Below are positions 7,940 to 52,080 of a DNA stretch of 64,000 nt, one piece after another. The notes under the pieces were generated by a model. It searched no databases. It had not been told where the DNA came from and saw nothing but the letters and a program-made list of their open reading frames with translations. Where the stretch lies: positions 1-64,000 of the IMG/VR virus record IMGVR_UViG_3300037116_000074. One strand, 5' to 3'. The position numbers were made by a program, and so were the translations under genes. The DNA is from a virus. Each line of letters begins with the position of its first letter. Position 1 is the first letter of the stretch.

Positions 7940-7978
7940 TTGCTATCATTAACATATGAAATTTACAGGAGTCCGTTT

Positions 7979-9719: not shown

Positions 9720-9724
9720 GCAAT

Positions 9725-9931: not shown

Positions 9932-10266
9932 AACAACCCTGTGAATATGTAGATATCGCTGAAGCCACTGGTACTATCATATTAGACCGTGGTCGTCATC
10001 GCTTTGAATGGAATGCTACAGCTCCAGGTACATTTAAATTATCCGGTGCTAAACATGTTAAATTCTACGCTATGACTAACTGGAAGAATAATGGACATTT
10101 GTCTATTATGGATGGGGTCGGAAGGGTTATTGCAAAGTGGCCATCATTGTTTACTGGTTCGTTCTGCCTGGAAGGCTACGCCGAAGGCGGCTTATATGTT
10201 CGGGTTGGTGCTGTAGGGTCTATAGCGCCGAAAGTTAATATTACGTGGTATGAAGCTGATGCCTGA
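9928..10266 (+). CDS. Small beta-rich protein, possible virion component
   Basis: 112 residues; alternating hydrophobic pattern of a beta-sandwich (TGTIILDRGRHRFEWNA, GLYVRVGAVGS, VNITWYEA). Overlaps both neighbours. It has a similar ending to the protein at 1416-1823. No family recognised; neighbours suggest a small structural or decoration protein. Confidence 0.65.
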   Translation: MKQPCEYVDIAEATGTIILDRGRHRFEWNATAPGTFKLSGAKHVKFYAMTNWKNNGHLSIMDGVGRVIAKWPSLFTGSFCLEGYAEGGLYVRVGAVGSIAPKVNITWYEADA

Positions 10267-21186: not shown

Positions 21187-22911
21187 ATGCGTCAGTTAAT
21201 TCTTTCTAGTTTATGTTTCTTCCTGTTAATACAACCAGGCTATACGCAAGTTGGCTTATTTGTTCGACCTGATAGCAGTTCACTATCTGCTCCGGTTTCT
21301 GGACAAACTTGGTTATTCAACAGTACCAATAAGACTATGCAGGTCTATAACGGAAGTATATTTCAGGTAGCATCAGCGCCGCTTAATAACTTCGTTGCTT
21401 CAGTAGCACCTACTTCTAGTAATGACAATACACAGGGATATACTCCTGGCTCAGCTTGGTACAACACAGTAACGGGTTTTACTTATCAATTAGTGAATGC
21501 CGCTACTAGTGCCGCTGTTTGGGTTCAAACAAATAATTTAGGTGCTTTATCCATACCTCTAACTTCACTACAGGCTGGTGGCGCTAGCGTTGGTCAATCA
21601 TTATTATTTAATGGAACGCATTGGGCCCCTGGTAGTCCGGCTATTAATTTAAATCAACTAGTTAACTCAGGTGCCCTTGTCAGTCAAGTCCCCGTATGGA
21701 ATGGCACTAACTGGGTGCCTCAAACATTATCCGGAGGCGGCGGTGGTGGTGGATTACCTGTTGGTGGATCTGATAATAAGATATTAAGTTATGCCAGTAG
21801 CACTGCTGGTTGGTTTAATGGGTTGAGTACAGTCAGTTCTTTAACGGTAAATACAGGCGCAACATTAACAGTTAATTCGCCAAGTGTAATCGTTGTAGCA
21901 CCATCTGGTAGTGACCAAGTTCTATATTTACCAGTGGCATCGACCTGTTTGGGACAGATGTTCACCATAGTTCAAAGTTATACTTTTAGTTTATATGAAA
22001 CTACTATTGAAACACAGGGTAGTGATCATATTGAACTCTTTAATGGGTTATCGGGTACTCCGTTTGGAGGACAGTTAGTCATTGGTGGCAATGGTCATGG
22101 TATACCATATTCTGCACCAGTTACTGTTATTAGTGATGGTATTAACTGCTGGCATCAATTAGCACCTTCTCAACAACCATATGCACCGGCTCCATTGGCG
22201 CTGAATGTAGTTGCTCAATCTAGCGACTTCAATGCTCATACGCAGGAAGTAGATCTAGTAACACTAACATCAGCCAACGTAACTGCAACTTTGCCTGATG
22301 CAACTTTATATCCAGGACAACAATTAGTTGTTATTTTAAATCAGGGTAGTTCAAGTTCATATTCATTACTTTTCGCTACGACTGCCGGCCAGCTTATTAA
22401 TGCTAGTAACTTCTGGTATAACCAAGGGTTTAGCGGTGGAACGCAAGCAATTGTGTTTACTTTTATTAGCAATGGAACTAATTGGAATGCTTCTTTTAGT
22501 GGCGATATGTTAGCTGGATTATTTAACGGTCCTAATAACGGATACCAAACTGGACAAATAGCAATGTCTACTAACGGAAATACTATTCAACTGCAATCAA
22601 TTTTATCCGCACATTCTGTCAGTAGCGATACTCTTGCCTATAGTATGAATTCTTATTTTGTAGATACTAGCGGCGGTGACGTTGTTATAACCTTAGCGGA
22701 CGCAGTTGCGGAATCGGGACAGGAGATATCCGTAACCTATGCAGTAGCTGGCAACAATGTTAAATTCGCTTCAACCAGTTCGCAAACTATTAATGGTGGA
22801 GCAGCTACATTCTTCACGTATTTAACTGTCGTTGGATCAAGTGTGAGATTTGTTTCGGATGGTTCTAATTGGTGGTGTGTTGCCAATACATTCGGCGGTG
22901 TTGGACCATAA
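21187..22911 (+). CDS. Fibre-like protein with signal peptide, paralogue of upstream gene
   Basis: 574 residues. Signal peptide MRQLILSSLCFFLLIQPGYT. The start of the mature part (APVSGQTWLFNSTN) matches the previous protein, but the middle is different. The C-terminal region has ITLADAVAESGQEISVTY followed by SSQTINGGAATFF and VSDGSNWWCVAN. These are domain endings also present in 18444-19118, 38801-39223 and the two minus-strand fibres at 43566-45877. A GGGGGG linker lies near residue 183. Exported fibre or adhesin. Confidence 0.8.
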   Translation: MRQLILSSLCFFLLIQPGYTQVGLFVRPDSSSLSAPVSGQTWLFNSTNKTMQVYNGSIFQVASAPLNNFVASVAPTSSNDNTQGYTPGSAWYNTVTGFTYQLVNAATSAAVWVQTNNLGALSIPLTSLQAGGASVGQSLLFNGTHWAPGSPAINLNQLVNSGALVSQVPVWNGTNWVPQTLSGGGGGGGLPVGGSDNKILSYASSTAGWFNGLSTVSSLTVNTGATLTVNSPSVIVVAPSGSDQVLYLPVASTCLGQMFTIVQSYTFSLYETTIETQGSDHIELFNGLSGTPFGGQLVIGGNGHGIPYSAPVTVISDGINCWHQLAPSQQPYAPAPLALNVVAQSSDFNAHTQEVDLVTLTSANVTATLPDATLYPGQQLVVILNQGSSSSYSLLFATTAGQLINASNFWYNQGFSGGTQAIVFTFISNGTNWNASFSGDMLAGLFNGPNNGYQTGQIAMSTNGNTIQLQSILSAHSVSSDTLAYSMNSYFVDTSGGDVVITLADAVAESGQEISVTYAVAGNNVKFASTSSQTINGGAATFFTYLTVVGSSVRFVSDGSNWWCVANTFGGVGP

Positions 22912-25245: not shown

Positions 25246-25663
25246 GATAAACTCCCAGCTTATTCAATAGTTGTTTTACTAATGGATACATAGCATTCAC
25301 AGTCATCGCATACAGTTCTCTATACTTAGGACGCTGACAATTAGCAGCATTATGACCGGGATCTAGTCCAGGGGTATAATATTTCGCTATGTACTTTAAA
25401 GCAGTTTGTGTATTGATAAGGGGGTCGAAGGCCTCATCAGGCGTTAGCTTACCTAGTTCACCATGTACATTTAATTGAAATAAACCAAATGATTGATAGT
25501 TATCGCCAACAACATACGGATTGAGTCCAGATTCTAAAGTGGCAATGCTAACAATAAAGATAGGGTCCAAGTGCGCTGCTACAGATTCACTTATGAGCAT
25601 CTGAATAATAGCTTTATGCTCTGGAGAAATAGAATTTTGCAATAATGTATCGATGAGTGGCAT
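25238..25663 (-). CDS. Virion lytic transglycosylase (SLT)
   Basis: 141 residues. Catalytic Glu in IATLESGLNP (E about 45), followed by the SLT motif SFGLFQLNVHG. This enzyme opens peptidoglycan locally during injection. Position between tape measure and hub fits a tail-tip lysin. One-base junction with the tape measure gene upstream. Confidence 0.9.
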   Translation of the reverse strand: MPLIDTLLQNSISPEHKAIIQMLISESVAAHLDPIFIVSIATLESGLNPYVVGDNYQSFGLFQLNVHGELGKLTPDEAFDPLINTQTALKYIAKYYTPGLDPGHNAANCQRPKYRELYAMTVNAMYPLVKQLLNKLGVYHG

Positions 25664-27798
25664 TAATGACTTACTCCGTGGCTATAGATTTTCGGTGAAT
25701 AACTACCGCCGGGATTGCTAGCTGCATGATTCATCTTTTGGGCGGATTTGAGTTGCTTGCGTTCTACATGATGGCTAACGTGCTCTCCGATTTTCTTACC
25801 ATCCAGGTGGATATCGTTATGAATTGTAATCGGTTGTGGTGGTGGTGGATTAAGATTTAAGCGTCCAGATGATTTAAAAGATTTAGCTAAATTTGCATCA
25901 ACTAAAGATTCAACATGTGGTGGTGCGATCATATATTGACCTTGACCATGTGTTGCAGGTAAACCAGCTCCAAGTAAGGGTAGAAATGAAGATTTCATGC
26001 CGGGCGGGGGCGGTGGTACGTTTAATTTTCGATAATCAGCAGCCCAGTCTTTGCTACCAGATTTTGTATGTGTCGTTAAACGACCACCCTGACCAGCAAA
26101 ATGTTGGCCAACCTGACCGGCTTCAAATAAACGATCTCCCAGTGCATTACCAATCTGAGTACCAGGACGCATCAGGGCTTTTTCAGGACTGGCGTTTCCG
26201 GTAAGCCATGTGGCAATCGGTCCTACATTATCATTTAAAATTTTAATCAATGCACTTAATGTATCGATACCACTATTCAAAGCTGCAACAACTTGTTTAT
26301 TATCTCCCAGTGCATTACCAAACGCTTCAAACGCTGCCATCATCTTAGCCCAGCGATCTTCAACAGAAGTACTGGTAGCTAAAACCTGATCTAGATTTTT
26401 AGCACCCTTAACTCCAAGCTGTTGTTGTTTGACGGTCTTCTCATATCGTCCAGTCATGATTTCAATCACTTCACCAATGGCTTTTTGTGTAGCACCATAG
26501 AAGAATGTTCCAACCATGCGCTTCTGTTCGACATCTTTTTGTTTTTCGAATTCGCCAGGTTTAAGATGAAAATAACGCTCCATACCAGCTTTCACTGGTC
26601 CTTGTAAGAATCCAATACGATCAGATGCTGCCTGCTCATACCACGGTGGTGGTTTTTGAGCTAAATAATTATGATAAACATCTTTATTATAAGTATCACT
26701 ACCTGCGCCAGTTAGAGTACCACCATTATGCAACACATGCTTACCTGATGGCATATCTATATATGTAGAACGTCCACCGCGGCCTTTATGATGCTGAGCA
26801 AATTCTTCGATACCAGGAAACATACCTGCTTCTTTCCAGATACCAATCATCTGCTTAGACATAATACCTTGTGAGAATATTCTATCCAAGGCCAAGGCAG
26901 ACGAACCAACACCGCCCATTCCACCACCGCCGCCGCCTGCTGTTAATTGTTCACTGATACCGTGAAATAATTCTCCAAATAATGAGAATTTATTAGCTCC
27001 CAACTTAGCACCGCGTGATTGTTGTAATTGCCTAGAGAATTGTGATAATGGAACTTGTCCTCCATAATACCCTTCGTATTGAGCCAACAAATTAGCAGTC
27101 TCTGATTTTTGTTTAATAGTACGGTCGCCCATCTTTTCCCAGATTTGATTCATAAGCATGCCAGTAGCACCCTCTTTTGAATCTTCAACATTAAGCTTAC
27201 GCATACCTAAATCAATTCGATTCATTAATTCCATTGAATCAATTACACCCCTGGTGTCAGGTGAAATCGCTGCACCCTTAATTGCATAATCGACATTCTG
27301 TGCTGCATTCATGGTATATTTCCCGGACGAAGCTAATGACAACGCTTTACGCCTAATCTCAGCCTGTTCATCACCTGAATAGCGACTTAGTTTTAATCGT
27401 TGTGCATTCTTTTCAAAATCAACGGCATTACCACCTACAGCGCCTACGCCTTGGATAAGCTTATAAATTCCTAATAGGGGAGCAACTGTACGCATTAAGC
27501 CGCCCAGGGAAGCGCCTAACATTCCGACTTGTCTAGTAGCGCCTGTAGCGGCTGTACCAACGTTTCTAACGCCAGTATGTATATTCTGCAAGCCACGTTC
27601 TTTCCGGGTCACAGAATCGATGCTTTGACCCATAGCATGGAACTGCTGATTAACTTTCTTCTGCTGAGACTCCATCATAGATAAGGTTTTGTTCATCTTA
27701 GAGAACATACCATCCATTTTTTGGAGCATAGGCAAGATCACCTTTAACTGCTGTTCCAGGTTACTCTTTAATTGAAGCTCTATGCCTACTTTATCCAT
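25663..27798 (-). CDS. Tape measure protein
   Basis: 711 residues, the longest gene of the tail operon and just downstream of the frameshifted chaperone. N-terminal 70 residues are coiled coil (LPMLQKMDGMFSKMNKTLSM...). A hydrophobic glycine-rich segment (about 85-125) follows, then long helical parts and a Gly/Pro/His-rich C-terminus. It sets tail length; at about 1.5 angstrom per residue (rule for other tails) it would measure roughly 105 nm. Confidence 0.9.
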   Translation of the reverse strand: MDKVGIELQLKSNLEQQLKVILPMLQKMDGMFSKMNKTLSMMESQQKKVNQQFHAMGQSIDSVTRKERGLQNIHTGVRNVGTAATGATRQVGMLGASLGGLMRTVAPLLGIYKLIQGVGAVGGNAVDFEKNAQRLKLSRYSGDEQAEIRRKALSLASSGKYTMNAAQNVDYAIKGAAISPDTRGVIDSMELMNRIDLGMRKLNVEDSKEGATGMLMNQIWEKMGDRTIKQKSETANLLAQYEGYYGGQVPLSQFSRQLQQSRGAKLGANKFSLFGELFHGISEQLTAGGGGGGMGGVGSSALALDRIFSQGIMSKQMIGIWKEAGMFPGIEEFAQHHKGRGGRSTYIDMPSGKHVLHNGGTLTGAGSDTYNKDVYHNYLAQKPPPWYEQAASDRIGFLQGPVKAGMERYFHLKPGEFEKQKDVEQKRMVGTFFYGATQKAIGEVIEIMTGRYEKTVKQQQLGVKGAKNLDQVLATSTSVEDRWAKMMAAFEAFGNALGDNKQVVAALNSGIDTLSALIKILNDNVGPIATWLTGNASPEKALMRPGTQIGNALGDRLFEAGQVGQHFAGQGGRLTTHTKSGSKDWAADYRKLNVPPPPPGMKSSFLPLLGAGLPATHGQGQYMIAPPHVESLVDANLAKSFKSSGRLNLNPPPPQPITIHNDIHLDGKKIGEHVSHHVERKQLKSAQKMNHAASNPGGSYSPKIYSHGVSH

Positions 27799-29468: not shown

Positions 29469-31391
29469 CTATGAAGCCGGTTGAGACGATACTACATTTT
29501 GGACACTCACTGTAGTTCCGCCTTGTAGAGTGAATATTAAATACCAGATAGAAGACAAATATGTTGCGGCAACGAATACGCTACAAATATGTTTTGCAAT
29601 AGTTGTAGGAGTGTTGTAACCAGGACTGTTATTAGTTTGGCTAAATTCACACAGAGTTACATATGCATCCAACTGAGTGTTAGAGACTAGTTGCGCTAAG
29701 AATGAATTCAAATTAGATTTGATTGCAGATCTCACTGGATCTACAACTTGTTGTGACTGTAACTTACCAATGAACTGGCCTAAATTAGCACCAACTGATT
29801 GAATTAAGAAATTAGTCATGCGTGAGTATTCTATTGGTGCAGTACCAATATTATTTAAGGATGTATTCACAGCGGTAACAAACCCAAACTGAGGACCAGC
29901 TGGAATAGGATTGCTCACCAATGCGATACCGTTTGTATTAGCTAAACCAATATCGGCATCATCGTAAGGGCCAATATTAGCCAATCTAGATGTAGTGACA
30001 ACTGCCTGTAGCGATTTGTTTAATGGAGATTGTTCTGGGCTTAAAGCAGCAATTAAACCGCCCAAAGGACCAGTCGGAGGAACGTAGCGTAACAACCCAT
30101 TAACTGGATCAAACATTTGAGGCCAGTCTATGAAGCACATCACTTGATAATTATCAATACCGTAACTATTTAAATCAGCTACAGCTGCTGAAACAGTAGT
30201 ATCTATTGGTTCACAAATAGCCATCAGTATGCCATTTTGAGATCCAATCGCTTGAATTGTTGGAGCAACAGTCATATCAGCTAAGCCAACACACCATGCT
30301 TGCTGTACAGATGGAATACATTTTAAGAGAGCGTATAAACCCGATCCTTGAGCACTAGCGCCGCCAGTTGGAGAACCAACTAACATAGCTGAAGTAACTC
30401 CACTACGACCATCAAGGCCGCCGGTTAGTGGTGTTGCAACTTGTAACTGTGGAGCATGAGTTGAACTAGCAGCGACAAAGCGGGCTAATTGCGATGCTGG
30501 GCGGGTTGGACCAGCTCCACCACTTAAAACTGATGTTAAAGCTGCCCAGAAAGCAGAAGTATTTGGCAGTGCTTGATAAAATTCTTGAGACTTGCCGGCC
30601 CATGCGGTTAATAGAACATTCACTAAAGTCGAACTAGTGCCTGGAAGAATCGACATGCGAATTGCATTACCAAGGACGCCCGTATAAAGAGCTGTTAAAG
30701 TACCGCCAATAACGGCTGAAGGAGATGTAATGGTGATAGTTTCAGTATTACTCCCTATGGCATAGGTGATAACAGGAATGATATCTAAATCTGTAGAAGC
30801 TGTAACAGTAATTGTCAAAGATGTTGATGTGGCTTTAATACCAGCAGCGGTTAGTGCGGTATTTGCATTAATAGCATTTTTAAGAGCTACTGTAATCGTT
30901 GATAATGTATCGCCGGATAAAACAGTATAAGGTACAGTAACTGGACTACCAGTTATGGCGCTGTTTGTAAATACTAAATTTATAACATCGGCAGTAGTTT
31001 TACTTCCACCGACTAAAAGAGTTTGTGTATCTGCGGTATTGTCATTCACTACCAGACTGGCAGCATCATCTGTACCATCAGATACACGCACTTCTTGAAT
31101 AGATAAGCCTAGTTGACTAGCTTGTTGTAACGATGTCCATACGTCTGTAGCAGCATCATGAATATCAGTTAATGAAGCGGCACTCACTGGACCAAAGAGA
31201 ACATTTTGTGACGCCATATCACCAATCAGAGTTGCCTTATTTAAAGGACCCCAAGAGGCCGTACCAATCATACCTACCACAGAAGCCGGAGCGCCCGTAA
31301 TGGAGGCTTGCGGAGGCTGAACTACTAAATAAACCGCTGGAACCGTTAAGGCTGATGGGTTAATTTGATCGGGGTTGATAATTATCGGCAA
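29469..31391 (-). CDS. Contractile tail sheath protein
   Basis: The TTG at 31391 is preferred as start because GGGAG lies nine bases upstream and the resulting N-terminus (MPIIINPDQINPSALTVPAV) is sheath-like. An upstream ATG at 31418 has no ribosome site. About 640 residues. Sheath features: VVGMIGTASWGPLN (about 40), GLDGRSGVTSAML, NSYGIDNYQVMCFIDWP, and a C-terminal FLAQL-type handshake region. An inserted beta domain (roughly 120-225, with YTVLSGDTLSTITVALKNAI) is shared with three other structural proteins here. Confidence 0.9.
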   Translation of the reverse strand: MPIIINPDQINPSALTVPAVYLVVQPPQASITGAPASVVGMIGTASWGPLNKATLIGDMASQNVLFGPVSAASLTDIHDAATDVWTSLQQASQLGLSIQEVRVSDGTDDAASLVVNDNTADTQTLLVGGSKTTADVINLVFTNSAITGSPVTVPYTVLSGDTLSTITVALKNAINANTALTAAGIKATSTSLTITVTASTDLDIIPVITYAIGSNTETITITSPSAVIGGTLTALYTGVLGNAIRMSILPGTSSTLVNVLLTAWAGKSQEFYQALPNTSAFWAALTSVLSGGAGPTRPASQLARFVAASSTHAPQLQVATPLTGGLDGRSGVTSAMLVGSPTGGASAQGSGLYALLKCIPSVQQAWCVGLADMTVAPTIQAIGSQNGILMAICEPIDTTVSAAVADLNSYGIDNYQVMCFIDWPQMFDPVNGLLRYVPPTGPLGGLIAALSPEQSPLNKSLQAVVTTSRLANIGPYDDADIGLANTNGIALVSNPIPAGPQFGFVTAVNTSLNNIGTAPIEYSRMTNFLIQSVGANLGQFIGKLQSQQVVDPVRSAIKSNLNSFLAQLVSNTQLDAYVTLCEFSQTNNSPGYNTPTTIAKHICSVFVAATYLSSIWYLIFTLQGGTTVSVQNVVSSQPAS

Positions 31392-31453
31392 GGTAGTACA
31401 CTCCCAGAATGTTAGCAATTGTAACTCTGAGAATATTTTAACCTACTTTAGGG

Positions 31454-38800: not shown

Positions 38801-39223
38801 CTAGAGAGAGCCAGCCGAAGCTACCCAGTTGGAACCATTACTAACTAATGAAAGACTAGTCGCAGGAGCAGTAAGCTTATATGAAGAATTGAACGAACTA
38901 GCAGAAAGAGTATTGATTGTTTGAGCAGTAGCGCTACCAAATGGAGCTACAGTTGCTAATGATACAGTATGGCTAGAACCCGTTTTAACCATCATAACTT
39001 TGAGTCCTTTACCGGCTGCTACTTGAGTAGCATCAGGAAGAGTCACAGTTATACTGGCAGCAGTTGCATCACAAACTAAGGTAGTTAATGGTGCAGCTAA
39101 AACAGCAGTAGCAGATACATTAACTAAAACGGAACCAGGCACATCACTAGGAGCCAAAGATTGAGCAAAGGCAGGTATGGATAAAGTTAAACTAGCTAAT
39201 AGAGAAAGTATTAACCGATTCAT
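38801..39223 (-). CDS. Small fibre-like protein with signal peptide
   Basis: 140 residues from ATG 39223, chosen because CAGGAG is nine bases upstream. Signal MNRLILSLLASLTLSIPAFA followed by QSLAPSDVPGSVL, nearly the same start as the mature protein at 18444 (QSLSPGDIPAINL). The domain is the SITVTLPDATQ...SNGSNWVAS fibre-tip module found in several other proteins here. Exported head/tail fibre-like protein inside the capsid operon. Confidence 0.78.
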   Translation of the reverse strand: MNRLILSLLASLTLSIPAFAQSLAPSDVPGSVLVNVSATAVLAAPLTTLVCDATAASITVTLPDATQVAAGKGLKVMMVKTGSSHTVSLATVAPFGSATAQTINTLSASSFNSSYKLTAPATSLSLVSNGSNWVASAGSL

Positions 39224-39224
39224 A

Positions 39225-39464
39225 TTATTCATCTCCTGAAACATGATCTAGACCGCCATTATCGACAGAATTGCCGAAAATAGAATCCATTTCTTTAGCA
39301 CATGGACGGAACGAACCTTCTTTCACTTCGCCTACGGCTGGTTGGATTTTGCCTTCACCAGGCAATCTCATATCAGCTGGAGACATTGGACGTTGGCGTC
39401 CAACACTATGGCCTTTCTTGGACATGTTTTGTGTATTTACGATTTGAGCTTTAGCGTCAGACAT
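39225..39464 (-). CDS. Small hypothetical protein downstream of capsid gene
   Basis: 79 residues, basic Gly/Pro-rich N-terminal half (MSKKGHSVGRQRPMSPADMR), acidic end. Immediately follows the major capsid gene, so a minor head protein is possible. Not recognised. Confidence 0.65.
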   Translation of the reverse strand: MSDAKAQIVNTQNMSKKGHSVGRQRPMSPADMRLPGEGKIQPAVGEVKEGSFRPCAKEMDSIFGNSVDNGGLDHVSGDE

Positions 39465-39480: not shown

Positions 39481-40890
39481 TTAGCAGTGTTCTATAACAA
39501 CAGCGCGTTTGTATGCAGCATTGCTAGCAGTAGGTATAATCGAAGGATTGGCAGTTAAGTCTGTTGGACATACCACACCGAATACGGATAAGTAAGTCAT
39601 TTGAACTTGACGACCCATATTGTCGATAGGAGCACGTACTATGTGAGCTATGTGATCAACCATATAGATATTACTGACTGAACCAACTGCTTCACCGCGT
39701 TGAGCGAAACTTTCTAATCCAGAGAAGTGTCCTTGGTACAAACCACCCATACCGGTAATCAATACACGGTGGATACTTGTTCCAGGAAGCAAGGCTTGCA
39801 TACCAGCAGCTGCGACAGATGCTTGTAAGTAAACTTCAGTTGTAGGTATGAAGGTCATGCCTAACAAAGTAAATACTTGGTTGTTTTGATACTCAGGGTT
39901 ATTACCACGACTTGCGTACATGATTTGGAACTGAGAATCTATAAGCAATTCAGTCATTGAATGATAATCAAGGTAGCAATGATATGTACCATCACGATGA
40001 CGGGGAATAGCATTTTGAGACAAACTTGCTTGAGCTGTTTGAAGCAAACTTATGCTTAACAAATCTTGCGAAGTAAGTTGGTTTGTACCTTGCTTGTTGT
40101 TTGGACGATAAACAGGAGATCCTAATGAGGATTGAAGGGCATCACCACCGACTGGTAATGTACCGGCAACTGGATTAATAGTTAAATAACCGGATATACC
40201 ATCTGATGCACTACCAACTACGGATGCTGGATATACAGAATTTGTCGGTACATCAGCTACAGCAGCTACAACATTGAATGTTTGAGTTACGCCACCATTA
40301 AATGCAACTTCTTGCACTGGAAGTGGATTATCAACAGCAACTGGAGTTGGAACACCATTGACCCAATTGACTTGGAATCCGCGAATGTCATCAACATAAA
40401 TCTTAGCTGTGGTTGGATCGGTTTCACCCATTGCAGCATTACGAATCCAGGTGTTGCCTGTATTGTATGCAGCGAACCATGTTTGTTTAAGAACACGTTC
40501 TATGGTTTGAGCAGCTTCAACACCATTAGTATGGGCTAAAGCCATTAATTGATCGGCAATACCTTCTTGTTCTTCTAACAAATCTAATTGCTTGTTACCA
40601 GCATATTGATTCACGTTATAAGTGTATTGTTCTAAACTTGGGGTTGTGGCAGTTAAACCATTATCTAAACCAGTAACATTGACTGGATTTAATGGTGTTG
40701 GTTGCGGTGGGGTACGACCTATTTTAGTCTTAGTGATACTATTACCTGCGCGTATAGGTATCATTTCGACAACAACATCATGAGAAAAAGCTGACTCTGA
40801 ATCAAGACCTTCTTCAAACGAACGGGCTAAAAAGCCTTGTTGGAATGCTATATTAAATGCGCTTCCTGGAGGAACTAAACCACCGGCCAT
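39481..40890 (-). CDS. Major capsid protein
   Basis: 469 residues. Features of P22-coat/N4-gp56-like HK97-fold capsid proteins: N-terminal arm, SITKTKIGRTPP, a helical spine with QYAGNKQLDLLEEQEGIADQ, an inserted beta region (about 180-270), and AIPRHRDGTYHCYLDYHSMT and GMTFIPTTEVYLQ near the A-domain. A scaffold gene precedes it and its own ribosome site is AAAGAGG. Confidence 0.88.
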   Translation of the reverse strand: MAGGLVPPGSAFNIAFQQGFLARSFEEGLDSESAFSHDVVVEMIPIRAGNSITKTKIGRTPPQPTPLNPVNVTGLDNGLTATTPSLEQYTYNVNQYAGNKQLDLLEEQEGIADQLMALAHTNGVEAAQTIERVLKQTWFAAYNTGNTWIRNAAMGETDPTTAKIYVDDIRGFQVNWVNGVPTPVAVDNPLPVQEVAFNGGVTQTFNVVAAVADVPTNSVYPASVVGSASDGISGYLTINPVAGTLPVGGDALQSSLGSPVYRPNNKQGTNQLTSQDLLSISLLQTAQASLSQNAIPRHRDGTYHCYLDYHSMTELLIDSQFQIMYASRGNNPEYQNNQVFTLLGMTFIPTTEVYLQASVAAAGMQALLPGTSIHRVLITGMGGLYQGHFSGLESFAQRGEAVGSVSNIYMVDHIAHIVRAPIDNMGRQVQMTYLSVFGVVCPTDLTANPSIIPTASNAAYKRAVVIEHC

Positions 40891-42308: not shown

Positions 42309-43517
42309 TTATAGAATTTGCGCTAGGGTCGCTGATCCTGCTCCACCTGCACCGCCAGTACCACCTTGAGTATTAGCTTTAACACCACCAGTACCACCAT
42401 TAGCTTGCACAGTTCCAGTATTAGATAGTGTACCTTGATAAAATATCCAAACTGCGCCACCACCTGCGCCGCCGCCGCCTGATGAACCGCCTATACCATC
42501 ACCACCAGTACCACCATTTCCTCCATTTCCTCCATTTGAAGATATAACTCCGCTACTTCCTATAGTAAGATTTCCACCAACAATTAGAACAAGATAGCCA
42601 CCACCTCCGCCGCCGCCTGTACTGCCAGATGTACCAGCTGAACCAGTTCCACCTGACCCACCAGGATTACCAGCACCACCACCTGCTCCAGGGCCATTAG
42701 CACAATTAGCTCCAGCACCGCCAGTACCACCATTAGTAGATGCATTACCACCAGTTACACCATTATAAGATCCGCCACCCCCGCCAGATCCACCACAAAA
42801 AGATGTACCAGCAGTACCATTACCACCAGCTGCATTAAATCCACTACCGCCACCACCACCACCACCGGGTGCATTAGTTGACGTTCCACCAGCTGAACCA
42901 GTTGTAGCTGGAATAGCACTAGCACCAGCACCACCAGATCCACCTGTAGCCGGTGTATTGTATGTAGTAGTTGTTACTGGCCCAACACCTGTAGTTATAC
43001 CATCTGTTGCAGATGAATATTCAATAATATTGGTAGATGAACCAGAAGCATTAGCCCCTAAACCATTCATACTTATTGTGCCATTGACTGTACAGTTTCC
43101 AGTGACGTAAATAATTAAACCTTTACATCTATTCGATACACTTAATATCTGCCCACTATTAACGGTTAACGAACTGTAATTTTGAATAATAGCCGGGCCA
43201 TCAGTTATAGAAGTTAAATTTGTACTACTACTAATAGTAACTGCACCATCGGCACCCGTACCAAAATAATTACTTGCAGCGGCTGCTGGCACCCAGTTAG
43301 TGCCGTTATATACTACTATGTTCCCAACACTGGGACTGCCAGTAATTAAATTATTAATAGCCGCGGTCCCCGTAGTAGCAGCTGTACCACCGCAATTAAC
43401 AGGTAAAGTACCAATCGTTGGAGACGAAGCGGTGGGATGGTAATCAGCCCCAGGAATCCCGGCGAAGCACTGAGTGCTAAATATTAAACATATTAATAGA
43501 CTGATTAGTTTTTTCAT
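42309..43517 (-). CDS. Glycine-rich fibre-like protein with signal peptide
   Basis: About 402 residues from ATG 43517. Signal MKKLISLLICLIFSTQCFA. Fibre-type opening (SPSVGNIVVYNGTNWVPAAA), a beta segment, then some 220 residues of Gly/Ser/Asn-rich repeats (GGSGGAGA, GGGGGGGSG, GGNGGNGGTG) resembling the polyglycine tip of the plus-strand fibre. The GGN/GGT-like DNA repeats make it prone to length variation. Exported or fibre-tip adhesin. Confidence 0.75.
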   Translation of the reverse strand: MKKLISLLICLIFSTQCFAGIPGADYHPTASSPTIGTLPVNCGGTAATTGTAAINNLITGSPSVGNIVVYNGTNWVPAAAASNYFGTGADGAVTISSSTNLTSITDGPAIIQNYSSLTVNSGQILSVSNRCKGLIIYVTGNCTVNGTISMNGLGANASGSSTNIIEYSSATDGITTGVGPVTTTTYNTPATGGSGGAGASAIPATTGSAGGTSTNAPGGGGGGGSGFNAAGGNGTAGTSFCGGSGGGGGSYNGVTGGNASTNGGTGGAGANCANGPGAGGGAGNPGGSGGTGSAGTSGSTGGGGGGGYLVLIVGGNLTIGSSGVISSNGGNGGNGGTGGDGIGGSSGGGGAGGGAVWIFYQGTLSNTGTVQANGGTGGVKANTQGGTGGAGGAGSATLAQIL

Positions 43518-43565
43518 ATACCGTATTATATCCATATTCGATACTGTCGAACAGTAAGATTATTT

Positions 43566-45917: not shown

Positions 45918-46391
45918 TTAACCTAAAACAATACTGATTGAGCTAACTAAAATCAAACTAGTTGAACTTTGAGCAGTTCCAATATAACGCATCCAAGTAG
46001 AACCTACCGCCAAGGGTGTTGTCGATAAAACACCTAGTAAACCGACAAAATAACGACTACCAACCGTTAAGCCGGTCGTATTTAGTTGCCCCAACTGATT
46101 AACTGTTATAAGATGTCCGGTTAACCCTGCTTCGGTTGAAATACCAACGTATAATCCGGCTAATGTAACGTTCGTAGGATCGGCTGGATATAAAAGACCA
46201 CCGACTAAAACGCAAGCAATACCAGCAGCTATGTTAACGCCGCATTGGGCCGTAACAGCACTGCCACTGCCTGGAGGGCCGGCTGGGCCTTGAGCACCTA
46301 TAGATACGACCTGAATAGGTCCAGGAATTACTGTGACGGTTGAATCGCCCAGTAGAGAACTAATAGTAACTGTTCCTTCGACTAGGCTCAT
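45918..46391 (-). CDS. Fibre-like protein with collagen-type motif
   Basis: 157 residues. GAQGPAGPPGSGS (33-45) is a short collagen-like Gly-X-Y stretch, followed by a domain (GLTVGSRYFVGLLGVLS, YIGTAQSSTSLIL) related to the C-terminal domain of the two fibres downstream. ATGA overlap with the upstream gene. Confidence 0.75.
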   Translation of the reverse strand: MSLVEGTVTISSLLGDSTVTVIPGPIQVVSIGAQGPAGPPGSGSAVTAQCGVNIAAGIACVLVGGLLYPADPTNVTLAGLYVGISTEAGLTGHLITVNQLGQLNTTGLTVGSRYFVGLLGVLSTTPLAVGSTWMRYIGTAQSSTSLILVSSISIVLG

Positions 46392-46786
46392 GGACTTGTT
46401 ACGCCACTGAGCGCAGCTGCTGACCCTTGCAGGAATCCATCAACGGCAGGACCTCCACCTGGATATAACAACAGATCATAATCCATGAATAATTGACCAC
46501 CAACCATATACGGACCAAAAGCAGCTTCGATATCAGCTTGGGTAACATTTAAAAATATTTGCCCAGCCGTTGGATTAAATGTAATCGCTGGACTCATTCC
46601 GGTACTGGAAAGTGTTAAATAGATAGTAACCGGCGGAATAGAGCTTCCAAACGACATTTTGGCATTGTAGCCAGTTAAATTAACCGGATTGCCAGTGGTA
46701 GAATCAGTATAAGTTAATGTGTAATTAAAGTCCGAATTGAGCTTAATTGCAAACTGTCCAGAAAAACTAAAGACTCCAGCTGCCAT
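46388..46786 (-). CDS. Beta-sandwich structural protein in fibre operon
   Basis: 132 residues (FAIKLNSDFNYTLTYTDSTT, NLTGYNAKMSFGSS, FLNVTQADIEAAFGPY). Resembles baseplate/upper-fibre accessory domains; not certain. It starts two bases after the biotin-acceptor stop, so the two are probably translated together. Confidence 0.65.
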   Translation of the reverse strand: MAAGVFSFSGQFAIKLNSDFNYTLTYTDSTTGNPVNLTGYNAKMSFGSSIPPVTIYLTLSSTGMSPAITFNPTAGQIFLNVTQADIEAAFGPYMVGGQLFMDYDLLLYPGGGPAVDGFLQGSAAALSGVTSP

Positions 46787-46788
46787 CC

Positions 46789-47010
46789 TTAAACCTCAAT
46801 AACAGTCCCTAACTCTTGTCCTTCTTGTACGAATTCACCCTCATGAACAAGCAGCTCTAGTTTACCATTCAATTCATTAGTAACTTCATAAAATAGCTTC
46901 ATAACTTCAATGTTGAGAATTAACTCATCTACCTTGACTATAGAGCCCGAAGGCATTAGTATTTGAGATACAATTCCTGAAACTGGTGAAAATAAGGTTT
47001 CTTTACGCAT
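46789..47010 (-). CDS. Free-standing biotinyl acceptor domain (BCCP-like)
   Basis: 73 residues from ATG 47010, exactly one biotinyl/lipoyl domain. Seen: FSPVSGIVSQILMPSGSIVK (first half-hairpin), the acceptor turn IEVMKLF with K38, then NGKLELLVHEGEFVQEGQEL. The MK pair at the turn is characteristic of biotin acceptors (EAMKM in carboxylases), not of lipoyl domains (DKA). No carboxylase gene is nearby. It is the first gene of the minus-strand operon of fibre, scaffold and capsid genes. A BirA-like ligase is encoded at 51309. A biotinylated virion or assembly protein is the obvious inference, not demonstrated. Confidence 0.88.
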   Translation of the reverse strand: MRKETLFSPVSGIVSQILMPSGSIVKVDELILNIEVMKLFYEVTNELNGKLELLVHEGEFVQEGQELGTVIEV

Positions 47011-47532
47011 ATGCATCCCGATTTAATAGCTGAACAATTATACAACGCTATGCAGCAACCGCCCGATAGAAAAACGTGGAGACGGTTTTTGCGTAAATTT
47101 AGTCTACCTGATGAAAATGCATGCTGGGAATGGAAAGCATACCTGAATCCTGCATATTATGGACAATTTAGATTGCGTAATTATAAACATGGGTTAGATT
47201 TGGCGACTAGGGTTATTATGACATGGCTATATGGACCTATCCAAGCAACATTGGTCGTTGATCATATGATGTGTAATAATCCTCCCTGTATTAATCCACA
47301 ACATCTGCATATCACTAGTCAAAGGGAAAATTTATTACGCTCTGATCAGACCTTAGCTGGGAAATGTATACGTAAAACTCATTGCCCACAAGGACATGCA
47401 TATTCTTTCATGAATACCCGGATAAGTTATAAGCGGGGATGTCCAGGCCGTACATGTCGTAAGTGTGATGCAATCAAGCAGGCTCTAAAACGACAGCACA
47501 TCAAGAGGGGTGACTTGTTATTACAATTATAG
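47011..47532 (+). CDS. HNH endonuclease (HNH_3-type)
   Basis: 173 residues, a different family from the zinc-ribbon copies: CWEWKAYLNPAYYGQFRL, ATRVIMTWLYG, VVDHMMCNNPPCINPQHL (catalytic DH and zinc Cys), SQRENLLRSD, and a C-terminal CPQGHAY...CRKC ribbon. It starts one base from the divergent biotin-acceptor ATG, so its promoter must lie inside that gene. Homing endonuclease likely. Confidence 0.9.
   Translation: MHPDLIAEQLYNAMQQPPDRKTWRRFLRKFSLPDENACWEWKAYLNPAYYGQFRLRNYKHGLDLATRVIMTWLYGPIQATLVVDHMMCNNPPCINPQHLHITSQRENLLRSDQTLAGKCIRKTHCPQGHAYSFMNTRISYKRGCPGRTCRKCDAIKQALKRQHIKRGDLLLQL
47037..47042 (-). promoter_or_regulatory. -10 box for the biotin-acceptor/fibre operon
   Basis: Minus-strand TATAAT (47042 to 47037), inside the HNH coding sequence, about 27 bases ahead of ATG 47010. 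A ribosome site (CGGGA) lies five bases before the start. No clear -35. Confidence 0.4.
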
Positions 47533-48071
47533 TCAGTGATCTAAAATCTCTAGCCGCTGATACACTGTTTACCGCTAGTGATGTGAAGGTTTACAATCGC
47601 TCCAAGATTAAAATCATCCGACAACATGCAATCGCAAGTTGTGGAGATGAAACTGATGGAGTTCGCTTTGAACGATGGTTTTTTGAACAAGGCGGAGAAA
47701 GTTTTTTGTGTGAGGGAGAATTTTCAGTCATTGTTATGACGAAGGAAAGATTCTTAATTGGTGAAACACTAGATGACTTAAAAGAACTTCGCAAGATGTG
47801 GCAACCGGGACGGAAGTTGGGATTAGGAATGGCTAATGCCGTTGCTGCTGCTGAGATTCTAATGAAAGAAGCAAATTATAATGCTCATAAAGCTGCTTAC
47901 GCAGCAGCGGGGTATAATACACACTGCGGTATGCCAATATACTCCATTACGAAAACTCAATTACGAAATATTAGTCCAGATTTTGCCGGATGGTGGATAG
48001 GTGATTATCAAACACCAATTAATAAAATGAATAACTTTCTTATCTCTCACAAGCAATGGTTAAAAACATGA
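47520..48071 (+). CDS. Proteasome-like Ntn-hydrolase, apparent ATT start
   Basis: A GTG at 47583 would cut off the conserved N-terminus. Reading upstream in frame gives ATT-ACA-ATT-ATA-GTC-AGT, i.e. (M)TIIVSDLKSLAADTLF, which restores the family's Thr nucleophile at position 2 and the AADTL motif. GAGGGG lies nine bases before the ATT, and the reading frame is closed just upstream (TGA 47511). 183 residues, ending in GLGMANAVAAAEILM and IYSITKTQ, matching the 6522 paralogue's ALGSGEDFAMAAML. Overlaps the HNH gene by 13 bases. Cytoplasmic, unlike the exported paralogue. Confidence 0.7.
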   Translation: MTIIVSDLKSLAADTLFTASDVKVYNRSKIKIIRQHAIASCGDETDGVRFERWFFEQGGESFLCEGEFSVIVMTKERFLIGETLDDLKELRKMWQPGRKLGLGMANAVAAAEILMKEANYNAHKAAYAAAGYNTHCGMPIYSITKTQLRNISPDFAGWWIGDYQTPINKMNNFLISHKQWLKT

Positions 48072-48613
48072 CCCCAGGGCCTTACATAACTGCCGTTATC
48101 GGCGCACGTAAGAGTGGGAAAACTACTGCTTGCGAAATTTTAAACAGCATGCATCCGGATTCGGAACGCATATCCATGATGGGTTATGGTATTCGGGCCT
48201 TTGCCGATCTGCATGACATTCGACTGGAAGCATTCTGGCAAGAACGCACCAGGGAAGAGAATCGATCCTTATATAATGTATTCAGTGAACATCAACGTAA
48301 GCAAAATCCACGGATTTTCTTGGATCCAATCTTGGCATTTATTAAATCTAAAACGCATGTCATTATTGATGATATTTTTTATTACAATGAGTTACAAGCC
48401 CTTGTAGAATGCCGGGCACATATTCTATTATTAGAGGTTCCAGATGATACCAGACTCACTAGGGGCTGGACTAAGAGTATGAATCAACAACCGATGGAAC
48501 AGGAAGTAGCCGCTATTAAAGGCGATACTATTAAACATTGGCGAAACGTGGAAATAATACAAAATACAATGGCTATTAATGAATTTCGTTTTATTTTGAG
48601 TAATTGCAAATGA
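48056..48613 (+). CDS. P-loop kinase, probable deoxynucleoside monophosphate kinase
   Basis: 185 residues; start ATG 48056 or 48068. P-loop GARKSGKTT (near 16-24), followed by SERISMMGYGIRAFADLH and VIIDDIFYYNE (Walker B-like), the layout of phage dNMP kinases (T4 gp1-like). Would supply dNDPs for phage DNA. Other P-loop NTPases of this size cannot be excluded. Confidence 0.7.
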   Translation: MVKNMTPGPYITAVIGARKSGKTTACEILNSMHPDSERISMMGYGIRAFADLHDIRLEAFWQERTREENRSLYNVFSEHQRKQNPRIFLDPILAFIKSKTHVIIDDIFYYNELQALVECRAHILLLEVPDDTRLTRGWTKSMNQQPMEQEVAAIKGDTIKHWRNVEIIQNTMAINEFRFILSNCK

Positions 48614-48816
48614 GTATAAGAATTAAAATTCTAACAGATCATGGGCAGGCACTTTACTTTGGTGACTATGCTACTGTGAGTAGTGCTATTCAAGCAATCA
48701 GTATTGTGGAAAATTTTCATACTTTTCGGGATCGTATGTTTGTAGAGCATAAATTAAGTACATTGGAACAAACGGTTACGCCTGAAGCGGAACGAATACA
48801 ACTTTATCCATTATGA
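48610..48816 (+). CDS. Small hypothetical protein
   Basis: 68 residues from ATG 48610 (ATGA overlap with the kinase). Beta-alpha mix (IRIKILTDHGQALYFGDYAT). Overlaps the following PDZ gene by four bases. Unknown. Confidence 0.6.
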   Translation: MSIRIKILTDHGQALYFGDYATVSSAIQAISIVENFHTFRDRMFVEHKLSTLEQTVTPEAERIQLYPL

Positions 48817-49172
48817 AATTGCTCTTATTAACTAGCTGCATAATATTAGCAACATATTATGGAGGTGTTTCTGTGGGGCATGGTAAGCCGGGGCGCATTG
48901 GTATTAAGTATGATCCAGTGCGCCATCAAATAGTGCATGTGTATAGACATACGCCAGCTGCTGAAGCAGATTTAAAGCCGGGAGATATCATACTGCATGT
49001 GAATGCGGCCGATATTACTGGAGAAGCATTTACTTTTGTTAACTTGACGATTAAACGTAAGAATGTAATATTTAATGTCGAAATAGAACGTATACCGAAT
49101 GAGTGGGTTCATGAGCAACAAGAAGCCCCTGACACAGAAATCGACCCAAGAATCACGCCCAAAACAGCGTAA
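48813..49172 (+). CDS. Exported PDZ-domain protein
   Basis: 119 residues. Leader MKLLLLTSCIILATYYGG, then one PDZ domain: GRIGIKYDPVRHQIVHVY (peptide-binding loop and strand), TPAAEADLKPGDIILHVNAA (the classic xGLKxGDxIxxVNG pattern), a helix and VIFNVEIERIP. The PDZ is the whole mature protein; no protease. Could bait or modulate periplasmic proteases such as DegP/Tsp types. The same fold recurs at 32631 and 54895. Confidence 0.8.
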   Translation: MKLLLLTSCIILATYYGGVSVGHGKPGRIGIKYDPVRHQIVHVYRHTPAAEADLKPGDIILHVNAADITGEAFTFVNLTIKRKNVIFNVEIERIPNEWVHEQQEAPDTEIDPRITPKTA

Positions 49173-49539
49173 GACTATTTATTTAGCCGGGCAAATGTCC
49201 GGTGTGAAAAATCATAACTATCCTAAATTCTTCAGAGGGCAGGCTAGGCTGGAGAAAGCTGGCTATGAAGTAATTAATCCAGCCAGATTAAACACCGTAG
49301 GTGATGCCTGGAGCGATTGTTTGCGGAATGACATTCTACATATTGTAAAATATTGTGACGGAATTGCCCTCCTGGATGACTGGATGTTATCACGGGGTGC
49401 TAGATTAGAGTTAGCAATTGCATTAAGATTAGAAATGTTTGTAATTTCAGCGCACACGCTAAAACCAATGCATATTACATTAGATAAATTGTTCTTACAT
49501 CGCAAGAGGGGTGGATATGTCGCAAGATACAAAGGATAA
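49111..49539 (+). CDS. DUF4406 nucleoside deoxyribosyltransferase-like protein
   Basis: 142 residues from ATG 49111. IYLAGQMSGVKNHNYPKFFR (about 23-42), GYEVINPARL, WSDCLRNDILHIVKYCDGIA and DDWMLSRGARLELAIA are the conserved blocks of the DUF4406/deoxyribosyltransferase-like family common in phages. May process nucleotides or nucleosides. Overlaps the PDZ gene by 62 bases in another frame. Confidence 0.85.
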   Translation: MSNKKPLTQKSTQESRPKQRKTIYLAGQMSGVKNHNYPKFFRGQARLEKAGYEVINPARLNTVGDAWSDCLRNDILHIVKYCDGIALLDDWMLSRGARLELAIALRLEMFVISAHTLKPMHITLDKLFLHRKRGGYVARYKG

Positions 49540-50023
49540 GAAGCGTACAATACGACCACTGAATCAACGGTTGAAAGATGCAGCTAATCTACTAGCTGCG
49601 CCTAAATTATTTAGACCAATATTAGATAAGAATATATATGGTAATAATTCATTTGAAGATTTAGATGTACCAAAAGTTCATATCACTATCACTCCCGATC
49701 CGAACTATGATACCGGTGCAAAGAAAAACGATTCCGGTAAACTCCCTATTGATCTCATACCAGTACGCCCCTTATTGGATTTAGCAGCTGTTTTACAACA
49801 CGGGCAAATTAAATATGATGCCAACAACTGGCGTAATGGGTTTTTGTTTAGCCGTACCTATGCAGCAGCACAACGACATCTCCTAGCTTGGCATAGTGGT
49901 GAGGATAACGATTCTGATTCGGGGCTTAGTCATTTAATGCATGCAGCTTGTAATTTATTTTTTCTTTCAGAATTTATGACAACACATAAGGAATTAGATG
50001 ACAGGGTAAAACAAAATGACTAA
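49517..50023 (+). CDS. dATP/dGTP diphosphohydrolase-like protein (DUF5664 family)
   Basis: 168 residues from ATG 49517 (GAGGGG upstream). After a variable N-terminus, the block KKNDSGKLPIDLIPVRPLLD, GQIKYDANNWRNG, AAQRHLLAWHSGED and GLSHLMHAACNLFFLSEF is the conserved phage domain named after dATP/dGTP diphosphohydrolases. The Asp/Glu/His set suggests a MazG-like metal site. Together with the kinase and DUF4406 gene it forms a nucleotide-pool cassette. Confidence 0.8.
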   Translation: MSQDTKDKKRTIRPLNQRLKDAANLLAAPKLFRPILDKNIYGNNSFEDLDVPKVHITITPDPNYDTGAKKNDSGKLPIDLIPVRPLLDLAAVLQHGQIKYDANNWRNGFLFSRTYAAAQRHLLAWHSGEDNDSDSGLSHLMHAACNLFFLSEFMTTHKELDDRVKQND

Positions 50024-50204
50024 AAATGAATTGAAATTAATCAAGAAAACTACATTAGTAGCGGCAATTGAATTGGTATGCCTTCACTTTCATGGACAAG
50101 GTGCTACTGAAGCTGAGCAGGCTGATTATTGGATTCGAAAAGCAATTATAGGTAAGAAAGGAATAGAAATTAATGCCGAAGAAACACAACCAGTATCTGA
50201 ATAA
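50016..50204 (+). CDS. Small hypothetical protein
   Basis: 62 residues, helical, overlapping both neighbours. Unknown. Confidence 0.5.
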   Translation: MTKNELKLIKKTTLVAAIELVCLHFHGQGATEAEQADYWIRKAIIGKKGIEINAEETQPVSE

Positions 50205-50691
50205 ACTCCTATTACTGATAACTCTGTTCGTAATTTGCGTACCATCATACGCAGAGTGCGTAACTATCCAGCGCGTCATAGATGGCGATACTGTTGTCAC
50301 CGAAGCTGGCGAACATGTACGCTTAGCGGAGATAGACGCTCCAGAGCATAATCAACGATTCGGGTATGAGTCCACACAATATCTTATTCATCTATTGGCA
50401 GTAACGGATAATGTTGTAGAACTAGATCGTGGCGATCACGATCGCTATGGACGAACTATTGGATTTTTGAATAGTAAGACTATAGGTTGCTTAAATTCTT
50501 TAATGGTTATGGATGGATACGCCTGGGTATATGTGAAATATGCTCACGATGCCGGTGTTTGGTATAGAGCAGAGAATCAGGCTAAATTTAATCATCTGGG
50601 GTTATGGATCGATAGAAATCCAGTGCCACCTTGGACGTTTAGGTTAATGGAGAAGCAACACTCTCCCATGCTGTATAGGATAAGACAATGA
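50173..50691 (+). CDS. Secreted thermonuclease-like protein (SNase)
   Basis: 172 residues with leader YLNKLLLLITLFVICVPSYA. SNase fold: VIDGDTVV (about 36-43), RLAEIDAPEHNQRFG (catalytic Arg and Glu/Asp), DHDRYGRTIGFL (second catalytic Arg), GLWIDRNPVPPWTFR at the end. A calcium-dependent nuclease exported to the periplasm; could degrade entering competitor DNA or host nucleic acid during lysis. Confidence 0.88.
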   Translation: MPKKHNQYLNKLLLLITLFVICVPSYAECVTIQRVIDGDTVVTEAGEHVRLAEIDAPEHNQRFGYESTQYLIHLLAVTDNVVELDRGDHDRYGRTIGFLNSKTIGCLNSLMVMDGYAWVYVKYAHDAGVWYRAENQAKFNHLGLWIDRNPVPPWTFRLMEKQHSPMLYRIRQ

Positions 50692-50870
50692 ATAGGCTTG
50701 AAAAACAAGAACGATTATTCGCTATTACACAGCTAGCTAAAGCTATCTTCATAGAGAAAGCAAAACAAATTAGCTTTACGCAAGATGTGGATGTAAGCTT
50801 AATGGTAGCAGAATGTTTTATAGCGGCGGAGCAATTTCTAGATGGGCAAGAGGCTTATGCTAAAAAATAA
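50688..50870 (+). CDS. Small helical hypothetical protein
   Basis: 60 residues, helical, between two SNase-like genes and overlapping both. Could be a partner of either; unknown. Confidence 0.5.
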   Translation: MNRLEKQERLFAITQLAKAIFIEKAKQISFTQDVDVSLMVAECFIAAEQFLDGQEAYAKK

Positions 50871-51306
50871 TAAATTATTAGTTCTTTTATTCCTAGTAAC
50901 TTTTATGTTACCAGCGACTGCCAGGCCGGCTATGCAAATATTCTATGGTGCCAAGGTGATGCATATCTGTAATGCCAATACCATTATTGTGAATGATTTA
51001 TACACGCATGAATTAGAGACAGTAATTATAGCCGGTACAATAGCACCGACTAATTTTAATCAGGATGATAATGGGAAGCGATACCTTACTACTATGATAC
51101 TGGGGCAAGAAGTAGATGTCTTGTCGTATGGGCACGACAAGTATGGTCGTGTTGTCGCAGATTTGAAAGATCATCGAAATTTATGGATATCATACGATTT
51201 GATTGCAGGTGGGTTCGTATATTGGAATAGAAGTCTAGGGTATGACTATACAGCAGAGCACTGTGAGAACTTTGCTAGGAAGCATCATAGTGGGGTGTGG
51301 AGGTAG
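50857..51306 (+). CDS. Secreted degenerate SNase-like protein
   Basis: 149 residues from ATG 50857. Leader LLVLLFLVTFMLPATARP. The fold is recognisable (VMHICNANTIIVNDLY; HDKYGRVVADL; FARKHHSGVWR). However, the RLAEIDAPE motif of its neighbour is replaced by VIIAGTIAPT, so the first Arg and the acidic residues are lost while the second Arg remains. Probably not a standard nuclease; perhaps a pseudoenzyme partner or inhibitor. Likely a diverged duplication of the 50173 gene. Confidence 0.7.
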   Translation: MLKNNKLLVLLFLVTFMLPATARPAMQIFYGAKVMHICNANTIIVNDLYTHELETVIIAGTIAPTNFNQDDNGKRYLTTMILGQEVDVLSYGHDKYGRVVADLKDHRNLWISYDLIAGGFVYWNRSLGYDYTAEHCENFARKHHSGVWR

Positions 51307-51308
51307 AT

Positions 51309-51824
51309 ATGCGTAATATCAATACATGCACATCCACAAATAATATCGCCAGAGCTGCTATTGATGATGGAAGAACGATAGATCTCATTGTAGCTCAGAA
51401 GCAAACGCATGCTTATGGTCGTAATCAGGATACTAAGTGGTATTCACCAGCAGGTGCTGGTATCTATATGTCAATCATAGTGCGGGAACCTAAGGGATAC
51501 TTAGTTACGGAAGACTGGTTTATCACAGAACGTATCGGGCATGCGCTGAAATGGAGTTTACGGACATTAACGCGATTGAATATCGAACAACGCGGAGTGA
51601 ATGATCTATTTGTAGATAATCGTAAAGTCGGTGGGGTACTATGTGAGATACATAAGGGATATCTAATTATAGGAATTGGTATTAATTTGTTCAGACCGAA
51701 GCGTGTTCCAGCGCCATATAACAAAACGGCTATCTGGTTGGATGAATTATTGCGGGCTGATGCAATCAGTGTGAAATATTACATAGATTCAATATTAAAT
51801 GAAGTCGTGAGGCTGGTAGTATAA
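51309..51824 (+). CDS. Biotin protein ligase homologue (BirA/LplA-LipB superfamily)
   Basis: 171 residues from ATG 51309 (GTGGAGG upstream). Catalytic-domain elements in order: TSTNNIARA (8-16), QKQTHAYGRN (30-39, the Q-T and GR of the biotinyl-AMP loop), W44 with YSPAGAGIYMSI (45-56), VNDLF (97-101; ND of KWPND), RKVGGVLCEI (105-114; K106 matches the BirA catalytic Lys), YLIIGIGINLF (118-128). There is no N-terminal HTH repressor domain. The GRGRRG loop and KW of KWPND are altered, so activity needs testing. With the biotin acceptor at 46789 it forms a candidate phage biotinylation pair. Confidence 0.82.
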   Translation: MRNINTCTSTNNIARAAIDDGRTIDLIVAQKQTHAYGRNQDTKWYSPAGAGIYMSIIVREPKGYLVTEDWFITERIGHALKWSLRTLTRLNIEQRGVNDLFVDNRKVGGVLCEIHKGYLIIGIGINLFRPKRVPAPYNKTAIWLDELLRADAISVKYYIDSILNEVVRLVV

Positions 51825-51825: not shown

Positions 51826-52080
51826 ATGCCGTACATCGAAAAACTAATGCGCAATGCAATTTTGCATCACACACTAGATGAGCTATGTGATGAAACGTGG
51901 ACGGATGGAGAAATCAATTATATGATTTCTATTTTACTGAAACGACAATTTTTTAATAACAAATGCTATGCAACTGCTAACAAATTAATTGGAGCAGTGG
52001 AATGTGCTAAACAAGAGTTTATTCGGCGATACTTGAATGCAATGGAGGATGAAAAGATAATCCAGAATGGCGACATCTAA
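51826..52080 (+). CDS. Hypothetical protein
   Basis: 84 residues, helical, acidic; follows the ligase by one base, so co-translated. Unknown. Confidence 0.65.
   Translation: MPYIEKLMRNAILHHTLDELCDETWTDGEINYMISILLKRQFFNNKCYATANKLIGAVECAKQEFIRRYLNAMEDEKIIQNGDI

Follow-up and report, generated by a model that had tools for sequence, protein, structure and literature searches.

The virus record IMGVR_UViG_3300037116_000074 of IMG/VR comprises 72,375 bp (72.4 kb) and is probably incomplete; we analyzed the stretch covering its bases 1–64000, hereafter called the window. By gene content, which includes sheath, tape measure, baseplate, capsid, and primase-helicase genes, the source is a contractile-tailed phage. 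Two small genes in the window, mapped with their surroundings in Table 1, encode a 73-residue protein predicted to be a stand-alone biotin acceptor (hereafter the acceptor) and a 171-residue protein resembling biotin protein ligases (BPLs; hereafter the ligase). An earlier note, made from the DNA letters alone, had read the two as a phage-encoded biotinylation pair.

The acceptor has the sequence MRKETLFSPVSGIVSQILMPSGSIVKVDELILNIEVMKLFYEVTNELNGKLELLVHEGEFVQEGQELGTVIEV; an alternative open start at 47016 would extend it to 75 residues. It matched PF00364 over the full length of the domain with 42.7 bits against a cut-off of 22.1 (E 5.2e-11), the single match to this family in the whole record, which bears out the earlier description of one biotinyl domain with an EVMKL turn and acceptor lysine K38. 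Its best relatives among solved structures were biotin carrier domains, including the transcarboxylase 1.3S subunit, and it aligned over its full length with the 1.3S subunit and with stand-alone Comamonadaceae carrier subunits; the closest sequences found were carrier subunits of Variovorax and Diaphorobacter (36.6–41% identity). For the comparison of biotin and lipoyl types we used PF00364 members from 18 bacterial genomes, at 28 cellular loci plus L006, L007, and L096. At the 28 cellular loci the turn is [AS]MK[MILV] in biotin-type domains and [TN]DK in those of lipoyl type. The acceptor turn, EVMKLF, contains the MK core present in 21/21 of the biotin domains examined, where lipoyl domains have DK, and can be compared with the EAMKLF turn of a Margulisiibacteriota carrier. 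K38 is followed by 35 residues to the C-terminus, the distance usual for biotin domains. An AlphaFold model of the acceptor was poor, with a predicted local distance difference test (pLDDT) score of 41.5 from an alignment of two sequences, because homologs are scarce; the fold is assigned from the Pfam match. Judged in this way, the acceptor is a biotin-type domain and a divergent relative of the known family.

The ligase matched PF03099 with 33.8 bits (cut-off 21.0; E 3.7e-8), again as the single match to the family in the whole record, and scored 72.1 bits against TIGR00121, which is under the cut-off of 83.1 for a profile of 235 positions, before whose end the protein stops. Its ATG at 51309 is preceded at four bases by GGAGGT, a strong ribosome site, and the GTG start at 51297 chosen by the open reading frame tool is less likely. 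An AlphaFold2 model built from 40 aligned sequences reached a pLDDT of 92.0 and a predicted template modeling (pTM) score of 0.88. When this model was compared with solved structures by VIA-align, all 50 listed entries were biotin protein ligases (Z 17.8–22.7), among them the S. aureus BPL (Z 22.7) and the A. aeolicus BPL (Z 22.3), with 167 residues aligned. By this model the fold of the ligase is that of a BPL catalytic domain. The earlier note had held that a prediction placing the two proteins in unrelated folds would count against it; the ligase half of that check came out as proposed, and the acceptor half is left with the low-scoring model described above.

The ligase was aligned with 88 relatives and with E. 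coli BirA, whose residue numbering is used here. Equivalents of S89, T90, N91, Q112, G117, R118, S125, P126, N175, and D176 are retained, as are those of K183, G186, L188, E190, G204, G206, and N208; the catalytic lysine K183 corresponds to K106 of the phage protein, and the adenylate-loop R118 to R38. The ligase ends at the equivalent of residue 166 in the Aquifex enzyme and residue 251 in E. coli BirA, and the C-terminal domain is absent; cellular relatives run about 65 residues further, except for one. That exception, a Margulisiibacteriota BPL (L158, 5965–6498), likewise lacks the C-terminal domain, spans 166 residues from where its match begins to the stop, and has a changed GRGK loop. 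Two other assignments were considered and rejected: a lipoate ligase identity for the phage protein, by its motifs and database matches, and a displaced C-terminal ligase domain just downstream, the gene there being a DUF6899 gene. Because each protein alone exceeds the curated cut-off of its family, with one match per family in the record, the observation goes beyond chance.

Outside this genome, searches of viral sequence collections revealed neither protein in a genuine phage; they covered 50,697 phage records, 39 records related by capsid protein, and 2.9 million viral contigs, and answer the earlier suggestion to look for co-occurrence in phage genomes. The contig search was pattern-based, with short exact peptide patterns required, and yielded no close relatives of acceptor or ligase. 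Alignment-based viral scans returned for the acceptor either nothing or one provirus edge (L096), where a host carrier gene stands beside an integrase, and for the ligase four contigs (L012–L015), all encoding full-length BirA. L012 was rejected as a relative, its full-length BirA lying beside a host guanine-synthesis gene. On L015, a 109.8-kb contig, a murB-birA pair (8715–10711) lies between the tail assembly and tail-tip genes of a lambda-like prophage. L013 (1030–1809) and L014 (679–1380) are podovirus-like contigs that share a full-length BirA gene, directly preceding a cell-wall hydrolase and capsid genes; lying near the end of the contig, it might belong to flanking host DNA or be cargo of the phage.

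Consensus queries against the 50,697 phage records matched 21 and 41 records. The matches inspected (L010, L011, L181, and L182) were rejected as bacterial contigs filed as phage, and the remainder also appear to be bacterial DNA by their record titles and feature names. OQ572412, MT835471, MT835577, and MT836109 are phage-filed records that are bacterial DNA where read, as with accB-accC in ‘Pseudomonas phage Y11’. Neither PF03099 nor PF00364 was found in the capsid-related records (0/39, most of them fragments), and a neighbor-gene scan returned nothing. Pattern scans, fragmentary records, and a genome scan confined to the matches listed limit what can be said of rarity, and absence elsewhere is not proved. 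No natural phage biotinylation pair was found in the open-access literature, in which engineered phage biotinylation is on record (PMC3256129); nothing comparable emerged from the sequence collections either, in line with the earlier statement that no characterized phage biotinylation system is known. Each protein is related, though divergently, to a known family; the pair, without a carboxylase, was not found in the other phages searched.

The acceptor gene is the first of a minus-strand run through fibers, scaffold, and capsid, and its stop lies exactly two bases (46787–46788) from the ATG of the following gene (46786), both as previously noted. The minus- and plus-strand runs diverge at 47010/47011, where an HNH gene begins at the next base; a promoter scan at this divergent start gave nothing above chance. 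Codon use in the acceptor gene is like that of the structural genes, its GC content at third codon positions (0.27) being in keeping with those of capsid and sheath. The ligase gene belongs to a series of small genes on the plus strand; genes for a dATP/dGTP diphosphohydrolase and a nucleotide kinase are close by. As the earlier note had stated, there is no carboxylase: PF02786 and PF01039 were without a match in the 72,375-bp record, in which positive controls were detected, and no biotin carboxylase or carboxyltransferase partner is present there for the acceptor as a carrier subunit. A BioY gene was likewise not found in the record, positive controls being detected, and anti-phage defense models gave no match.

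Table 1 Features of the locus and of the surrounding phage genome (window coordinates)
Feature	Position	Strand	Evidence or remark
Acceptor: stand-alone biotinyl domain, 73 aa, predicted biotinylated K38 in EVMKL	46789..47010	-	PF00364, biotin-type motif
K38 codon, predicted biotin attachment site (E35-V36-M37-K38-L39)	46897..46899	-	translation from ATG 47010; carrier-domain alignment
Gene next to acceptor, 132 aa, unknown function	46388..46786	-	PHROG 1084; weak tail-fiber assembly family match
Ligase: short BPL-like enzyme, 171 aa, catalytic domain only	51309..51824	+	PF03099, AlphaFold2 model
Alternative GTG start (51297) and Shine-Dalgarno GGAGGT (51299-51304) for ATG 51309	51297..51308	+	
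Staphylococcal-nuclease-like protein, 2-base gap upstream of ligase	50842..51306	+	PF00565 E 5e-5
DUF6899 protein, 1-base gap downstream of ligase	51826..52080	+	PF21840 E 5e-19
Major capsid protein, far end of the acceptor's minus-strand cluster	39481..40890	-	phrog_1357 E 3.2e-15
Sheath	29469-31418		
Tape measure	25663-27798		
Primase-helicase	62032-63483		
Genes with apparent Sec signal peptide	18444-19118, 19128-21185, 21187-22911	+	
Genes with apparent Sec signal peptide	38801-39244, 42309-43535	-	

The capsid protein shares 33–35% identity with the coat protein of Komagataeibacter phages phiKX1/phiKX2. It is 90% identical to that of one contig (L002, 8.7 kb), which stops short of the acceptor locus. 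Several other genes drew attention. The staphylococcal-nuclease-like gene upstream of the ligase is the second of a tandem (the first at 50173–50691, plus strand); both products are apparently secreted, and the second is a weak match. A histone-deacetylase-fold protein is encoded at 7042–7902 (minus strand; PF00850 E 3.6e-11), with the usual HH, DxDFHxGxGT, and GGGY motifs readable in its sequence, and nearby are an HslV/proteasome-type peptidase lookalike without a Pfam match (6522–7064, plus strand) and a subtilase-family protease (7835–9334, plus strand; PF00082 E 6.8e-13). The apparent Sec signal peptides of Table 1 are carried by several fiber-like or structural-cluster proteins, an odd feature in virion proteins of a phage; a gene of L002 (4074–4481) has a Sec-signal-like start as well.

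That both families occur in one genome and are undetected in the other genuine phages searched suggests that the functions of the two genes are linked. In the mechanism we propose, the short ligase would form biotinyl-5′-AMP from host biotin and ATP in the infected cell and pass the biotin to K38 of the acceptor, which would work like the free-standing BLAP of Bacillus. It is likeliest that K38 is biotinylated by either the phage ligase or the host BirA, and we lean toward a phage-owned module in which the phage ligase does so. This requires three inferences: an active ligase, the acceptor as its substrate, and a host BirA that is not the main modifying enzyme. Once modified, the acceptor would be soluble and act in the cell, either serving biotin-dependent enzymes of the host as a carrier or competing for biotinyl-AMP as a sink; these two cell-side roles, taken jointly, fit the bare domain and are the ones we tentatively favor, while a part in the virion or its assembly fits the gene position only and is unlikely. 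These judgments overlap, some concerning role and others chemistry, and the leaning toward a phage-owned module applies to the biotinylation step only.

Several observations weigh against such a module. The two genes are separated by 4.3 kb, belong to clusters of opposite orientation, and are probably not co-transcribed. The valine before MK in the acceptor is unusual, occurring in 0/21 of the biotin domains examined. In the ligase, near-invariant positions are changed (G115A, 99% conserved; R116Y; K172R, 99% conserved; and W173G, a tryptophan in 88/88 relatives), the GRGRxGR loop is altered to AYGRNQDTKW with G120-R121 changed and one extra residue, and the KWxND motif reads QRGVND. The motifs named for it in the earlier note are present, but the protein is more divergent than was implied there and has no C-terminal domain; with the partial loss of GRGRxGR and KWxND it seems better called BPL-like than a standard member. 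Its branch is the longest of all 90 ligases in a tree, which, with the placement unsupported (sister L132, support 0.33), does not point to an origin. An engineered Aquifex ligase fragment [2–171] without the C-terminal domain is active in biotinylation (PMC9253107; see also PMC9293651), but the truncations in those studies had an R40G or L41P change and their readout was promiscuous labeling, and among E. coli-derived ligases removal of the C-terminal domain nearly abolished BioID activity and left miniTurbo inactive (PMC9253107, PMC9293651). By sequence and analogy the ligase is likely, but not certainly, active: its changed residues and missing C-terminal domain leave activity not assured, since the Aquifex fragment works and the shortened E. 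coli-derived enzymes work barely or not at all. The pair was also found in one genome only, which precludes a test of conservation or coevolution.

Some of these points would also serve a scheme in which host BirA biotinylates the acceptor and the phage ligase has drifted, for example to making or holding biotinyl-AMP only, so that the pair is a coincidence of separate acquisitions. The opposed orientation of the clusters, the active-site changes, and the absent C-terminal domain are all compatible with it, and BirA enzymes are able to modify small biotinyl domains of foreign origin. Chance co-presence would nevertheless be unusual for two families undetected in the other genuine phages searched, and the ligase gene has an open frame and a strong ribosome site and encodes intact catalytic residues, which argues for maintained function; we regard this scheme as possible but doubtful.

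Whichever enzyme acts, the acceptor might serve as a sink or regulatory decoy, an abundant substrate using up biotinyl-AMP and so derepressing host biotin synthesis or starving host acetyl-CoA carboxylase. PMC4016012 describes such an effect in B. subtilis, where an extra acceptor (AccB-86) derepresses the biotin operon, and the same holds for E. coli; the lack of a phage carboxylase in the record agrees with a decoy role. However, a phage ligase would be needless for this purpose where the host has BirA, and a decoy should be expressed early, yet the acceptor gene stands in the structural cluster. As a distinct account we find the decoy unlikely.

Its position at the head of the fiber-scaffold-capsid cluster, two bases from a fiber-assembly-like gene, and its structural-type codon use could instead mean that the biotinylated acceptor is part of, or builds, the tail fiber or capsid, for instance gripping a biotin-binding or biotin-transporting surface protein. 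The acceptor is, however, a bare domain with no fiber, capsid, or secretion segment; L002 ends before the locus, and the mostly fragmentary capsid-related records lack the family, so this role is improbable. We give as little credence to a variant centered on the ligase, in which a catalytic-domain-only enzyme, its adenylate loop loosened, attaches biotin to a protein of the virion or its assembly, or releases biotinyl-AMP that labels nearby host proteins (compare microID). Host contamination or an assembly chimera, a concern raised by the many database ‘phage’ matches to both families that are host DNA, is very improbable for two genes set within long phage-gene runs at 1–2 base gaps, with no neighboring host gene, phage-like composition and codon use, tight operon placement, and a strong ribosome site on the ligase.

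Biotinylation is known as a modification of a small number of metabolic enzymes. If the phage-owned module is real, biotin would have a part in infection apart from carboxylation, serving as a tag or a handle or allowing host biotin to be steered, and the ligase would be a natural enzyme that lacks the C-terminal domain, much as the engineered labeling enzymes microID and ultraID do.

Among known systems, the Comamonadaceae carrier subunits (Variovorax and Diaphorobacter; NF005457-like; 70–73 residues) share length and domain with the acceptor. Each of them, however, adjoins a biotin carboxylase gene, which the phage acceptor does not; their turn reads ESMKM, whereas that of the phage reads EVMKL, and no ligase adjoins them in the short stretch examined. 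BLAP (YngHB) of Bacillus subtilis, which the acceptor is proposed to resemble in the way it works, is also a small free-standing biotin acceptor unfused to a carboxylase. It is encoded on a bacterial chromosome and, according to PMC4016012, is biotinylated by the host's BirA, whereas the acceptor is a phage gene.

On the ligase side, the only viral entries with E < 0.001 in a predicted-structure search were lipoate-protein ligase A-like proteins of Siphoviridae ctVCm11 and ctg6c78 and of Bodo saltans virus. They share the broad fold superfamily at 12–15% identity, but 2/3 are named lipoate ligases, whereas the phage protein has biotin-ligase motifs. E. coli BirA has the core R118, K183, N175, D176, and N208 in common with the phage ligase, at about 27% identity over the core, but possesses a DNA-binding N-terminal domain and a C-terminal domain, both of which the phage protein lacks. 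The best sequence match among solved structures is the Aquifex aeolicus BPL, whose microID/ultraID fragment [2–171] has the same extent as the phage ligase and is active, but is an engineered protein with an R40G or L41P change. The phage ligase, in contrast, keeps the arginine and differs from that fragment at other loop residues and at the tryptophan of KWPND.

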